Origin: Pseudomonadota bacterium
Lineage (GTDB): Bacteria; Pseudomonadota; Gammaproteobacteria; Pseudomonadales; Pseudohongiellaceae
Assembly: GCA_027621405.1 (NCBI GenBank)
Contig: JAQCBT010000004.1
Span: forward strand, 124,001 to 188,000
Length of the DNA stretch: 64,000 nt
Direction: 5' to 3'
The notes beneath the pieces are model-generated. The model saw only the letters and a list, made by a program, of their open reading frames with translations, was not told the origin of the DNA and searched no databases. This document shows positions 56,381 to 61,256 of this stretch, one piece after another; the stretch's first letter is position 1, and each line of letters opens with the position of its first letter. The translations under genes and the position numbers were made by a program.

Positions 56381-56839
56381 ATGACAGGCCCGGTTAAGAA
56401 GATGCTCAGCGTGGAATATGGCCCGGCCACCGGTGGCCGTATGCAGATCTGGCACTGGCTGTGCAGCTTCCGCAATTGGCCGGAGATAGTCACTAATCTG
56501 CAAGCGGTTGAGCAACTCGATGAGGGAGCGCCGGGGCGTGGAACGACTTTACGACTGCAATGGCCGGGTTCAACCCAACTCTGGGTTGTCAGCCACTGGC
56601 ACCCGGGTCAGCAGTTGGATCTGCTGCGCAAGGGTGCGACGGGTCGCCGTGCCTATCGAATAGCCATCGAAGAATCCGGTGATCCCGGTTACTACCGCCT
56701 CGTCGTGTATTCCCAGGTCGAGTATGAAGGATTCTGGAGTTTCCTCGGCCCCCTGTTCACCGCCATTGAGAGCAAGCGGGCACACAGCTGGTTGCAGCAG
56801 CTACTAGCGGGCCTCTCAAGCCTGCATGCCCAGATCTAG
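56381..56839 (+). CDS. SRPBCC-like protein (polyketide cyclase/dehydrase fold)
   Basis: A 152-residue protein whose pattern fits the START/SRPBCC fold: IWHWLCSFRNWPEIVTNLQAVEQLDEGAPGRGTTLRLQWPGSTQLWVVSHWHPGQQLDLL and a C-terminal helix. These proteins bind small hydrophobic ligands. The assignment rests on overall pattern only. It is preceded by 194 bp of non-coding sequence and followed by 233 bp before the cyclase-like gene on the same strand; neither interval holds a gene I can support. Confidence 0.6.
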   Translation: MTGPVKKMLSVEYGPATGGRMQIWHWLCSFRNWPEIVTNLQAVEQLDEGAPGRGTTLRLQWPGSTQLWVVSHWHPGQQLDLLRKGATGRRAYRIAIEESGDPGYYRLVVYSQVEYEGFWSFLGPLFTAIESKRAHSWLQQLLAGLSSLHAQI

Positions 56840-57072: not shown

Positions 57073-59385
57073 ATGAATTCTGAAGTCGCTACCACCTTGC
57101 TGGAACAGGTGGAAACACAAAGGTCGCTGCAGATATCGATCGATAGTATGTCCAAGGGCATAGACAACTATCACATCGATGTTCGCATTAGTCGTCGCTT
57201 CGCTTCAGATGTGAAAAAGCTGATCGCCCTGCTGACATCCCAGCTCGCAGTCCCCAAGCCCAAGAACTGGGACAATTCCAAACTCTTCGAAAAGCTGCGG
57301 GACAAGTACGTCGACCTGATGACGGTTCTCATCCACCGGGTGAAGACCGATCTTAGTGCTGATGAGATTTGCCTGCTGCAGTTCGCCGCCATCAAATACA
57401 CACTCAGGTTTACCCGCAGCACCCTGGATGACGACATTCGCCGGGTTAATGCAAAACTTGCCGAGAATCGCAACAAGGGTTCTTCAGAGGCGCTGGCAAC
57501 CCAACAGCGACTGTTCTGGCTCAAGAAAAACTATGACGCCATTCTGTATGCCGTGAACAAGCAATTGTTTGCTCAATTACAGAGAGCTGAGGAAAGACAG
57601 CTAGCGGGTGTACGCGAACAGTACCTGGGTGAGCAGTATCGCTTTGTCGTGGATATCTTGATGAACCCCCTGCTCTACACGTCGGATCTCAGTTCCCTGA
57701 CCCTGCTGCTCAATGAATTCAGCCTGTGGACTTTGAACGCGGAGAATAGCGGCTTCATTGATCTTAATGATGAAGTGGAGAACCTGCTTAACAAGCGCCT
57801 CAAGGGACTTGAGATCACCTCTCTCAAGCATGATGCATCGGTGGACAGTGCCCACGCCGAGATTCATGATGCGCTGAAGGGACTATTCCAGACCCAGGAC
57901 TTCATGGGCAAGGCCCAGGACACCAAGAGCACAATCGCAGAAGAATTTTGCTGGTTCGAAATTCCGGAAAACCTTTCACTTCTGTTCAATGCCAGGAGTA
58001 ATGCGGATCGTCTGAAGGAGATTCGAAAACGCGAAGGCTTCGGTGCCTGGTGGAAAGCGCGGGGGGAAGTAGCTCATTTAAACCGAACGCTGAATGCGTT
58101 CACTCGCCTGTTGAGGAAAAAGAAACTATTGCCGCAACTGCTGGCTTCACCCTTCATGCGACGCTCGATCAATCCCACGATCAGGGAACACGTCGATCTG
58201 AAGACTATCTGCCAGTATCTCTGCGGCAAGATAACACTGGAGAAACTGCAGGAAAGCATTCCGGGCTCAAACAAGCTCAGTGAAGAGCAATTGAAATCAC
58301 TGGAAGAGGTGCGGGCAAGTCTCGAAGAGCAGATCAAGAAGGCAGACTTCAACGATTCATTGCGTTTGCTTCTGGACATCAGCCAGTATCGGCAGAAATT
58401 AAAGTTTTATCGATTTGCCCATCGCGCCTTCAATCGCTTCCAGATTCTCACTGCGGAAGACGATATCAAGCTTTCCAAGTCTGCCGGTACCCTATACCTG
58501 CTACCTACTTCTTCCGAGATTGAAGAAGACGAGGAACGGATCTGTCATCACGCCATCCTCAAGGCCGATGTACGAGGTTCCACGACGGTAACCGACGAAT
58601 TGCAGGCCAAGGGGCTTAATCCCGCTTCCTATTTCAGCGTGCGATTTTTCAATCCAATCAACAAGATTCTGGAGAGCTATGGCGCAAACAAGGTCTTCAT
58701 AGAAGGCGACGCAATCATTCTCAGTTTCCTCGAGTATGAGCACACGCCCCAGCAGTGGTTCGCTGTCGCGCGTGCATGTGGTAATGCCAGGGACATGCTG
58801 AAGATCACCAGTTCCAACAACCGCTATTCCACCCAGATGGGTCTGCCCTTGCTGGAATTGGGAATCGGTATCTGCTATTCCGATGAGGCGCCTCGCTTCC
58901 TCTACGATGGCGACCATCCGATCATGATTTCCGGCGCCATCGGTCTGGCCGATCGCATGTCTGGTTGCTCGTGGAATCTGCGCGCTGCCATCCAGAAGAG
59001 CCTGTTCAACGTCGATGTTCTTCGTATAGCCGATGGAGAAACCGGAAAGGGAGAGAAAGGGCAGGTATTACTCCGTTACAACGTGAATGGTATCAATCTG
59101 GACGACAAGGCTTTTTCCAAGCTCAAGACTGAAATCTCAATGCGCAGCTTGAAGATGAAGCTCAATGGCAAGGAATACCTGTTCCACACTGGTCAGTACC
59201 CCGACGTGAATGGTCGCAAGAAGGAGCTGGTAATCAGGGAAGGCAAGATTGGTTTGTGGAAGGATCAGGAAATACATGATGATCCCGATAGCGAGGATAG
59301 TTACTATGAGGTGGTGGTTAATCGCAAGGTTCTCACGCTTATTGCAGACTCGATGAAGAGTACGCAAACCATCACTACCGACTAG
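57073..59385 (+). CDS. Large protein with C-terminal class III nucleotide-cyclase-like domain
   Basis: A 770-residue protein I cannot assign to a named family. Residues about 1-480 are mostly helical and charged, without membrane segments or a recognised domain. From about residue 490 a cyclase-like core appears: KADVRGSTTV (first metal Asp, 499), GANKVFIEGDAIILSF (second metal Asp 546, Lys 540 in the purine-recognition position) and GAIGLADRMSG (Arg 628). The asparagine of the usual VNxAxRL motif is glycine here (624), so catalysis may be altered or absent. After about residue 645 comes a further 125-residue part. The next gene starts 6 bp downstream, so they form an operon. Confidence 0.75.
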   Translation: MNSEVATTLLEQVETQRSLQISIDSMSKGIDNYHIDVRISRRFASDVKKLIALLTSQLAVPKPKNWDNSKLFEKLRDKYVDLMTVLIHRVKTDLSADEICLLQFAAIKYTLRFTRSTLDDDIRRVNAKLAENRNKGSSEALATQQRLFWLKKNYDAILYAVNKQLFAQLQRAEERQLAGVREQYLGEQYRFVVDILMNPLLYTSDLSSLTLLLNEFSLWTLNAENSGFIDLNDEVENLLNKRLKGLEITSLKHDASVDSAHAEIHDALKGLFQTQDFMGKAQDTKSTIAEEFCWFEIPENLSLLFNARSNADRLKEIRKREGFGAWWKARGEVAHLNRTLNAFTRLLRKKKLLPQLLASPFMRRSINPTIREHVDLKTICQYLCGKITLEKLQESIPGSNKLSEEQLKSLEEVRASLEEQIKKADFNDSLRLLLDISQYRQKLKFYRFAHRAFNRFQILTAEDDIKLSKSAGTLYLLPTSSEIEEDEERICHHAILKADVRGSTTVTDELQAKGLNPASYFSVRFFNPINKILESYGANKVFIEGDAIILSFLEYEHTPQQWFAVARACGNARDMLKITSSNNRYSTQMGLPLLELGIGICYSDEAPRFLYDGDHPIMISGAIGLADRMSGCSWNLRAAIQKSLFNVDVLRIADGETGKGEKGQVLLRYNVNGINLDDKAFSKLKTEISMRSLKMKLNGKEYLFHTGQYPDVNGRKKELVIREGKIGLWKDQEIHDDPDSEDSYYEVVVNRKVLTLIADSMKSTQTITTD

Positions 59386-59390
59386 CCCTC

Positions 59391-60389
59391 ATGCCAGTCG
59401 AGAGCGATCACACCGATCCCCTGCTGCCTGTACCCGTAGACCCCCCCAGGGCGATCAGCAGACTGACTCACTATTTTTCTCTCACCCTTTCCATTCCCGA
59501 GAGAACGGCCAGAGCGATGGGTGCAATCGTTGGCGGCAGTACCATGCTGCTGACCCAGACGCTGGTACCGGCTGCCATCAAGAATTCCTCCAGCTATCAC
59601 TTCACGGTGGGTATGTTCCAGGCGTTCCTGGTTCAGAATGTGGCCGGCATGCAGGACATCAAGAACGATACCCGCTTGCAGGACCGATTTATCCATCGAA
59701 AGCTGGTAGGCACATCCCTGGAAGCAGCGGGTCTGCTGACCATGCATCTTTCACCGGTGTGGGTGTTCGCCATTGCTGCGGATGCGGCCCGCGGCGGTCA
59801 GGTCTTTCTGCAGCGCCTGGTACAACACCTGAAAGAGAATGGCGTCATTGCCAGGGAGAGCAATCCCGAGACGCTCGAGCAGATTCTCAAGTCGATTCAG
59901 GATATGTCCCATCGTGGTGCAACAGCCATCGACACGCCTCCGCTCAGTAGCGAGGAGATCAGAATTCTGGCAGACGAACTGCGCCAGAGTACGTCCAGAC
60001 TTAGCGCAAACTACAGTGAGTTACTGCCCAGTTTTGAAAAGCTTTGGAACCAGATCCTGCTGGTAGCCAGGAAAGAAAAGCTCAGCGTGCCTGAACTGCT
60101 GGGCATGCTTTCTGTGCATGCCTCCAGTTTGTCCAGTGCGGGAATCAACACGGCGGGTGCCCTCGGTCGTACTGGCTATGGAATCCTGGATGAGATGATT
60201 CTGTCGGATTACAAGCAAACCCTGCAGGGAATAGCCGAGCACGGCGCTGGGAATTATCTCTCCAGTCACATGACGCCGTTTCTTGAAAACGCGCGATCTC
60301 ATTTCGATCTCAATCGCGAAACCGCAACCCAGCGCTGGTTTTTGAACACCTGGGACAAGTTTAAGTCCAAGTTATTGTCCGATAAGTGA
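59391..60389 (+). CDS. Unknown protein paired with the cyclase-like gene
   Basis: Not recognised. The 332-residue protein has two moderately hydrophobic stretches (about residues 40-65, MGAIVGGSTMLLTQTLVPAA, and about 105-133, LEAAGLLTMHLSPVWVFAIAAD) and is otherwise helical and soluble-looking. It may be peripheral to the membrane or insert into it. It begins 6 bp after the cyclase-like gene and is followed by 251 bp without a convincing gene, which makes these two a tight unit. A membrane target, effector or regulator of the cyclase-like protein is a guess from context. Confidence 0.65.
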   Translation: MPVESDHTDPLLPVPVDPPRAISRLTHYFSLTLSIPERTARAMGAIVGGSTMLLTQTLVPAAIKNSSSYHFTVGMFQAFLVQNVAGMQDIKNDTRLQDRFIHRKLVGTSLEAAGLLTMHLSPVWVFAIAADAARGGQVFLQRLVQHLKENGVIARESNPETLEQILKSIQDMSHRGATAIDTPPLSSEEIRILADELRQSTSRLSANYSELLPSFEKLWNQILLVARKEKLSVPELLGMLSVHASSLSSAGINTAGALGRTGYGILDEMILSDYKQTLQGIAEHGAGNYLSSHMTPFLENARSHFDLNRETATQRWFLNTWDKFKSKLLSDK

Positions 60390-60640: not shown

Positions 60641-60949
60641 ATGAATCAACCCCAATTTTCCAAATTCTCACCAATCACTGTGGCCGTGAAGAAAAACATC
60701 CGGCGCTTGCGATTGAATGCGGGTTACTCGATGAACGAGGGCGCACGACTGCTGGGCGTGTCTCGCAAACAACTGGAAGATATTGAGACTGTGCGCAACT
60801 ATGGCTGCCACCTTGACCTCGAGCTACTGGCCAAGATGAAAGTTATTTACAAGACCTCTCTCGATGAACTGGTAGGAGATCTTCCCGAAGACTACTATTC
60901 AGACTACTACATGCGTCCCCGCAAACGCCTGGGCTCGAAGTCCAGATAA
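60641..60949 (+). CDS. XRE-like helix-turn-helix regulator
   Basis: A 102-residue protein whose centre fits an XRE/Cro helix-turn-helix: VAVKKNIRRLRLNAGYSMNEGARLLGVSRKQLEDIETVRNYG (about residues 10-52), then LELLAKMKVIYKTSLDELVGD. The C-terminus is acidic then basic (DYYSDYYMRPRKRLGSKSR). It has its own upstream region of 251 bp with AT-rich sequence and a weak promoter candidate (TTGTCA near 60473). Targets are unknown; it might control the upstream pair, which is on the same strand. Confidence 0.75.
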   Translation: MNQPQFSKFSPITVAVKKNIRRLRLNAGYSMNEGARLLGVSRKQLEDIETVRNYGCHLDLELLAKMKVIYKTSLDELVGDLPEDYYSDYYMRPRKRLGSKSR

Positions 60950-61046: not shown

Positions 61047-61079
61047 CTGCGGTCTTTTTGACGCAACGAGAAAGTGTTC

Positions 61080-61256
61080 ATGGCTAGTAAAGCAAAAAAA
61101 GAAGCAGCAGTAAGTTCCCGGGAAGATCTGGAGGAGCATATCGCAGCATTCCTGAAGGCGGGCGGCAAGGTCCAACAAATTCCTTCCGGCGTGAGCGGTC
61201 AAACATCTACCAGCGGGCCAAGACAGATCGTTCTGAGCCACAAAACCAGTTCTTGA
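61080..61256 (+). CDS. Small SutA-like protein
   Basis: A 58-residue protein with a basic start (MASKAKKEAA), an amphipathic helix (SREDLEEHIAAFLKAGGKVQQIPSGVSG) and a polar tail. The FLKAGGKVQQI segment resembles the FLxxGGKVQxI part of SutA, an RNA-polymerase-binding stress protein of Pseudomonas, but this protein is shorter and lacks SutA's acidic N-terminus. It has a good promoter, a purine-rich ribosome binding site (GAGAAAG) and a following hairpin, which support a real, well-expressed gene. SutA membership is tentative. Confidence 0.7.
   Translation: MASKAKKEAAVSSREDLEEHIAAFLKAGGKVQQIPSGVSGQTSTSGPRQIVLSHKTSS

Follow-up and report, generated by a model that had tools for sequence, protein, structure and literature searches.

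A 64,000-nucleotide stretch of a Pseudohongiellaceae genome (Pseudomonadota bacterium, GenBank assembly GCA_027621405.1, contig JAQCBT010000004.1, positions 124,001 to 188,000 of the forward strand), hereafter the window, carries two adjacent forward-strand genes, here called A and B. Gene A (57073..59385) encodes a 770-residue protein and was delimited from the open reading frame (ORF) list, a family alignment and a profile match to class III nucleotidyl cyclases. Its product consists of a long helical N-terminal region with no known domain (residues 1-480, 57073..58512), a divergent class III cyclase-like domain recognized by alignment and profile comparison (residues 486-655, 58528..59037), and a C-terminal extension that is strand-rich in a low-confidence model (residues 656-770, 59038..59382). 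The domain is marked by Asp499, a KGLNPASYFS motif at residues 513-522, Phe542, Asp546, Ile617, Gly624 and Arg628. Gene B (59391..60389) encodes 332 residues, helical in a low-confidence model, and was seen only in the window's genus. Only 5 bases separate the stop codon of A from the start of B, and an XRE-like ORF (60641-60949, forward strand) follows 251 bases past B. The extents of these ORFs and the tight A-B spacing had been described in an earlier reading made from the DNA letters (the sequence-only reading), and both were confirmed by a check of the ORFs.

The same reading had proposed that the C-terminal domain of A is a divergent relative of class III cyclases. A first, weak hint of this was a phmmer match of A residues 494-601 to the adenylate cyclase chain 2w01 (E 0.054). 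For a profile-profile comparison with hhalign, 30 A-family domains (22 after redundancy filtering) were aligned against seven ordinary class III cyclases, six of which were drawn from the window's genome with the Pfam model PF00211 and one from a second genome (G045). The A-family domain matched with a probability of 95.7, an E-value of 1e-8 and a score of 57.6, as compared to scores of at most 21.1 in 60 column shuffles and of 14.7 and 16.9 for two unrelated alignments. The metal and transition-state positions of the two families stood in register. That the resemblance exceeds chance, and that it reflects kinship with class III nucleotidyl cyclases, is well supported at the sequence level, and it extends more broadly than the sequence-only reading could know. 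The cyclase model search which that reading had suggested gave a divided answer, negative against Pfam and positive by profile-profile comparison. A profile of the domain run against the PDB gave weak matches, with adenylate cyclase 2w01 the best (E 0.027) and 6fht at E 0.22. Neither A nor B could be placed convincingly in a family by single-sequence scans against Pfam, NCBIfam and PADLOC, and the sole repeated Pfam match below 0.001, to TraI_2 in 3 of 34 A members (best E 4.5e-4), was taken as chance. Among 13 near relatives the domain is the most conserved part of A, at 71-95% identity as compared to 48-70% for residues 20-460; residues 656-760 show 57-77%. As this holds even where residue 624 is Gly or Ala, the domain is under strong constraint.

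Active-site residues were compared in an alignment of the window protein with 65 ORFs longer than 680 residues (shorter ORFs were excluded), 66 sequences to which 10 from genomes of the same class were added to give 76 rows. Two further proteins (L136 and L138) stand outside these rows and agree with them at the active-site positions; two fragments (L144 and L145) gave no rows. Lys497, Asp499, Arg501, Lys540, Phe542, Glu544, Asp546, Ile617, Ile619, Ser620 and Asp627 are invariant in all 76 rows, as is the LNP of the KGLNPASYFS motif, and Arg628 is kept in 75. Asp499 and Asp546 align with the canonical metal aspartates, Arg628 with the transition-state Arg and Gly624 with the transition-state Asn; the two aspartates and the glycine thus sit where the sequence-only reading had placed them. 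Its purine-site lysine, however, proved to be out of register. The position four before the second metal Asp, which is Lys in five of the seven ordinary cyclases and Glu in two, is occupied by Phe542 in every row, and Lys540 lies two residues earlier, six before Asp546. In class III cyclases the base is specified by a pair of residues, Lys with Asp or Thr for ATP and Glu with Cys for GTP. The second site of this pair, which we take to be the position seven before the transition-state Asn, holds Ile617 in the A family. We also weighed, and abandoned, an equation of Phe542 with Phe60 of the clade D pyrimidine cyclases, as Phe60 lies two residues before the first metal Asp (PMC11224242) and so does not coincide with the Phe542 position.

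At position 624, Asn is found in 51 of the 76 rows, including all 48 that are titled Desulfobacterota or Acidobacteriota. The clade of the window (18 rows) has Gly in 17 and Ala in one, and the ten other rows from the same class have Gly in five, Asn in three, and Ala and Ser in one each. On a 49-row tree built with the site's own columns removed, at least six changes are needed at this site, the tree itself being a quick search of thinned rows with several long branches and 11 open forks. One Asn-bearing row titled Acidobacteriota (L073) was placed inside the gammaproteobacterial clade on this tree. The change from Asn to Gly is unlike decay of the whole domain, since the domain is the best conserved part of the protein in the 13 near relatives. 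Nor does a missing Asn exclude activity, because the atypical mycobacterial cyclase Rv1900c has His in its place, and Asn is replaced in other such proteins as well, as reported in PMC4886424.

Distribution was surveyed in a panel of 58 genomes, the window's own included, with 36 congeners among them. A was matched in 14 of the 58: the window's own genome, 12 of the 36 congeners and one further genome of the order, where the match is weak (E 5.9e-4) and the matched protein is, judged by its sequence, a response-regulator-type cyclase. Of the 12 matching congeners, five (L032, L033, L034, L035 and L037) carry a complete or nearly complete A; the gene is truncated by the contig end in L038, devoid of its N-terminal part in L040, and interrupted or a remnant in five (L036, L039, L041, L042 and L043). 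The copy in genome G007, with 19 stops over four pieces, and the remnants of 57 and 40 residues in G022 and G012 look like decay; some of the other interruptions could be assembly errors. In L040 (genome G003), several genes that separate an imelysin-like gene from A in other congeners are missing along with the N-terminal part of A, and the imelysin-like gene thereby adjoins the remaining cyclase-like domain. Judged by their length, several contigs bear two locus names (among them L049 as L032, L055 as L036, L065 as L037, L066 as L035 and L067 as L039); owing to such shared contigs, counts from the congener panel and from the named loci below overlap and are not to be summed.

Beyond the panel, a scan of GTDB genomes found at least 80 loci with relatives of A. 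By title, the loci among the matches listed comprise 28 gammaproteobacterial, Pseudomonadales, SAR86 or plain Proteobacteria, 12 of Desulfobacterota type (a count that takes in titles reading Deltaproteobacteria) and 40 of Acidobacteriota type. Among genomes drawn from the window's class, 15 of 369 (the window's included) hold A at an E-value of 1e-10. No relatives of A were found in plasmid or phage records, and a scan of viral contigs, sensitive to close relatives only, likewise detected none; an alignment-based scan of the viral contigs found no B. A phage or plasmid origin of the locus is accordingly unsupported.

The N-terminal 480 residues of A contain a conserved G-x-D-N-x-x-x-D-V motif at residues 29-37 and no similarity to cyclases or to B. 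As in the sequence-only reading, they hold no recognized domain in scans against Pfam (34 family members), NCBIfam and PADLOC; the helical nature that it also ascribed to them is seen, for most of the region, in a low-confidence model. Predictions of A and B singly, which it had suggested as a check, gave models too poor to use, with a mean predicted local distance difference test (pLDDT) score of 45.5 for A and 37.8 for B, both built from 9-row alignments. The order of structural elements at residues 492-601 fits in the AlphaFold2 model of A, where pLDDT is below 50. A Foldseek search with this poor model listed Rv1625c, 5o5k and the uridylate cyclase 8jsz among ABC transporters (best overall E 0.045), and the list was not counted as proof of a cyclase fold.

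In some other members of the class, the family is joined to a membrane peptidase domain. All four scanned A homologues of 911-950 residues from same-class genomes carry a Peptidase_A8 (signal peptidase II) domain in frame at the N terminus, with E-values of 9.4e-5 (just under the curated cut-off), 2.9e-16, 4.4e-7 and 1.3e-9; the fused homologues are L134, L135, L137 and L141, and also L136 and L138. The corresponding model, PF01252, was searched in 12 of the 14 other genomes of the class with A, the two with fragmentary matches (G264 and G411) being excluded. A PF01252 domain lies just upstream of A in 7 of these 12 genomes outside the genus, each time in an open frame common with at least the start of A. 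All seven hold a second PF01252 match elsewhere, and the other five have one ordinary match only; in G144 the second match is a fragment and the fusion frame is broken within A. The catalytic Asp dyad is kept in all four fused domains aligned with the LspA of the window's genome, and both Asp motifs are present by eye in L136 and L138. These relatives of A resemble signal peptidase II in an in-frame domain with its dyad, but differ in that this domain is fused to the A family and that their genomes also hold a separate LspA match. Pfam finds no Peptidase_A8 domain in the window protein itself. The fusions suggest an unexpected membrane input, and nothing relevant linking signal peptidase II or LspA to cyclases was found in the full-text literature searched.

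Within the window's genus, A lies in a syntenic block: an SRPBCC-like gene precedes it, B and then the XRE-like gene follow it, and an oppositely oriented FKBP/SlyD-like gene often stands between A and B. B was found in 10 of the 58 panel genomes (the window's own included), all of the genus; it was not found in the 22 order-level genomes, and among the 369 class genomes only the window's own has it. Scans assigned no family to B, whether in Pfam (nine members) or, for the single B protein, in NCBIfam and PADLOC. An assignment to EcsC was rejected (no Pfam EcsC match in nine members; hhalign probability 0.2 against one EcsC protein). At least part of A and of B is present in 19 of the 26 named loci L045-L070. 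The gap between them is 5-22 bases, as in the window, in five of the 19, and 496-1861 bases with a convergent FKBP gene in between in the other 14. That gene encodes a His-containing tail (L033:7620-8162, L032:10920-11483 and orthologues); the window's genome has no orthologue at the locus, just more distant matches elsewhere (39% and 30%). B is intact beside a broken or remnant A in five loci (L036, L039, L042, L043 and L058), whereas L035 and L037 have a full-length A but no B. The latter holds by clustering in L061 as well, no search for a diverged B having been made beyond that, while L068 ends with A and is thus uninformative on B. The XRE-like gene is present in 21 of the 58 genomes, eight of which, all congeners, have no A match, and its product is 81-92% identical in 11 A-bearing congeners (it is split in the twelfth), far above its neighbours.

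The two-gene unit of the sequence-only reading therefore stands in part. A and B are adjacent and, in the neighbourhood survey that it had called for, are not unlinked in all relatives but stay in one syntenic block; B, however, was found only in the genus, A occurs in three phyla, and each occurs without the other. Because B was seen only in the genus and is intact beside broken copies of A, and because the XRE-like gene occurs without A, what the three genes have in common is a location; a shared function is unproven. Outside the genus, a HEAT-repeat gene, an HD_5 (HD-GYP-like) gene and then A stand on the same strand in an apparent operon in three Syntrophales-type loci (L078, L080 and L116; neighbours assigned by Pfam in L116 and by clustering in the other two), and in L071 A comes immediately after genes for a histidine kinase and a sigma-54 response regulator. 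These are signalling neighbourhoods. No conserved neighbour that would explain A across phyla was found in the loci compared.

Taken together, profile kinship, residue conservation, domain fusion in relatives and distribution are directly seen, and from them we infer, with a confidence only somewhat above even, that A represents a subfamily, so far uncatalogued, within the class III-type nucleotidyl cyclases, an atypical nucleotide-signal synthase for which catalysis, dimerization, base choice and regulation are predicted. Two copies of A would pair, with Asp499 and Asp546 holding the metals and Arg628, together with Asn624 in most relatives sampled, stabilizing the transition state, so that a nucleoside triphosphate would be converted to a cyclic nucleotide or to something chemically close to one. 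The base-reading pocket would present the invariant Phe542 and Ile617 in place of the purine-specifying Lys and Asp/Thr, and because of this replacement, substrate choice probably departs from the usual ATP/GTP mode. The helical N-terminal region would serve as a regulatory input, hanging in some gammaproteobacteria from the signal peptidase II-like membrane domain. In the lineage of the window, the replacement of Asn624 by Gly may slow or alter the reaction, and B would be an optional local companion as opposed to an obligate partner. A cyclase-like family over three phyla has been overlooked by the annotation libraries used here, and its base pocket, fixed yet unlike that of ATP or GTP readers, marks it as a clear candidate source of some unusual nucleotide signal.

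As in ordinary class III cyclases (PF00211), the two metal aspartates of A and its transition-state Arg come in the same order and spacing. A differs in having Phe and Ile at the base-reading pair, Gly for Asn in the window, a KGLNPASYFS stretch that falls against gaps in the seven ordinary cyclases, no PF00211 match in its family (34 of 34 members), and an N-terminal region and C-terminal extension without recognized domains. DUF2652 proteins also have a divergent class III-like domain, and the mycobacterial set lacks the Asn and has an altered substrate pair, according to Ramakrishnan et al. 2016 (PMC4886424); they are described there as averaging ∼250 residues and mostly single-domain. DUF2652 is not among the 16 Pfam families matched by any of the 34 A members at E-values up to 1.

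Several observations weigh against a synthase. Neither Guanylate_cyc (PF00211) nor any other Pfam cyclase model is matched by any of the 34 A members at E-values up to 1, full-length A profiles match no cyclase in the PDB, and the fold has no independent support from the poor AlphaFold model of A, for which Foldseek ranks cyclases high but at E 0.047 or worse. The purine-specifying pair is missing in all 76 rows and the window protein has Gly624 for the transition-state Asn. There is no A match in 24 of the 36 congeners (some of these genomes are incomplete) and A is broken or a remnant in five, which indicates that A is dispensable in the genus. In the Acidobacteriota loci tested, the neighbours of A are housekeeping genes (in representatives from L083, L105 and L119, genes for a tRNA synthetase, an HhH-GPD (MutY-like) protein, a redoxin, an M28 peptidase, a TonB-type protein and a molybdopterin enzyme). 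In a second explanation, tentative and rather unlikely in our estimation, the domain in the lineage of the window is a pseudo-cyclase that has kept metal and nucleotide binding, has lost cyclization with the change of Asn624 to Gly, and acts as a nucleotide-binding switch for the N-terminal part. Such a switch would fit a domain that is still strongly conserved and yet has Gly or Ala at 624 in 18 of 18 rows of the window's clade. Of the ten other same-class rows, seven have Gly, Ala or Ser at this site, none of the 48 Desulfobacterota- or Acidobacteriota-titled rows has lost the Asn, and the tree needs at least six changes. The pseudo-cyclase reading sits less well with the retention of both metal aspartates and the transition-state Arg, and with the replacement of the same Asn in Rv1900c and others noted above. 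If catalysis were absent, A would be a well-conserved pseudo-cyclase in which the loss of the catalytic Asn can be traced on a tree.

The sequence-only reading had further raised the idea of a signalling module made up of A, B and the XRE-like gene. These genes are kept in one syntenic block and the A-B gap is short in the window and in five of 19 named loci, but we consider a dedicated module improbable: B is found intact without an intact A, full-length A without B and the XRE-like gene without A, an FKBP gene intervenes in 14 of 19 loci, and A occurs without B in other families and phyla. Least probable of all, and by our estimate very improbable, is that the locus is a Pycsar anti-phage system with A as the pyrimidine cyclase and B as the effector. 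Pycsar cyclases share with A the class III-type fold (assigned to A by profile) and unusual base-selecting residues, as described in PMC11224242. Three of 34 A members weakly match one PADLOC PycC model (best E 6.7e-4), one matches another at 0.011, and 8jsz appears in the Foldseek list of the poor A model at E 1.1. The PycC match is unspecific, however, as all seven of the ordinary class III cyclases give much stronger PycC matches, with E-values down to 3.7e-28. The residues at the base-selecting positions also differ: when F60, K104 and F109 of AnPycC are placed on A by their distance from the metal residues D62 and D106 (PMC11224242), they fall on Lys497, Glu544 and Ile549. Neither B nor the XRE-like protein has a TIR, transmembrane or cyclic nucleotide-binding effector domain in Pfam and PADLOC, the locus is syntenic within the genus, and plasmid and phage records, like viral contigs in the scan for close relatives, gave no match to A.

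Returning to the synthase reading, the fusions permit an extension that we regard as a long shot: the family would make a cyclic nucleotide with a base selected otherwise than by the purine code, and in the gammaproteobacterial fusions the signal peptidase II-like membrane domain, its Asp dyad intact, would sense lipoprotein traffic and drive synthesis. If true, lipoprotein processing would be coupled directly to a second messenger.

Two further genes flank the locus on the forward strand. The SRPBCC-like gene (56381-56839; Polyketide_cyc2, E 0.01) lies 233 bases upstream of A, and its product is fast-evolving, with only 20-31% identity to eight aligned counterparts at the same place in relatives. 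Adjoining the XRE-like gene on its other side, 61074-61256 encodes a small protein that matches the SutA RNA polymerase-binding domain (E 3e-14).

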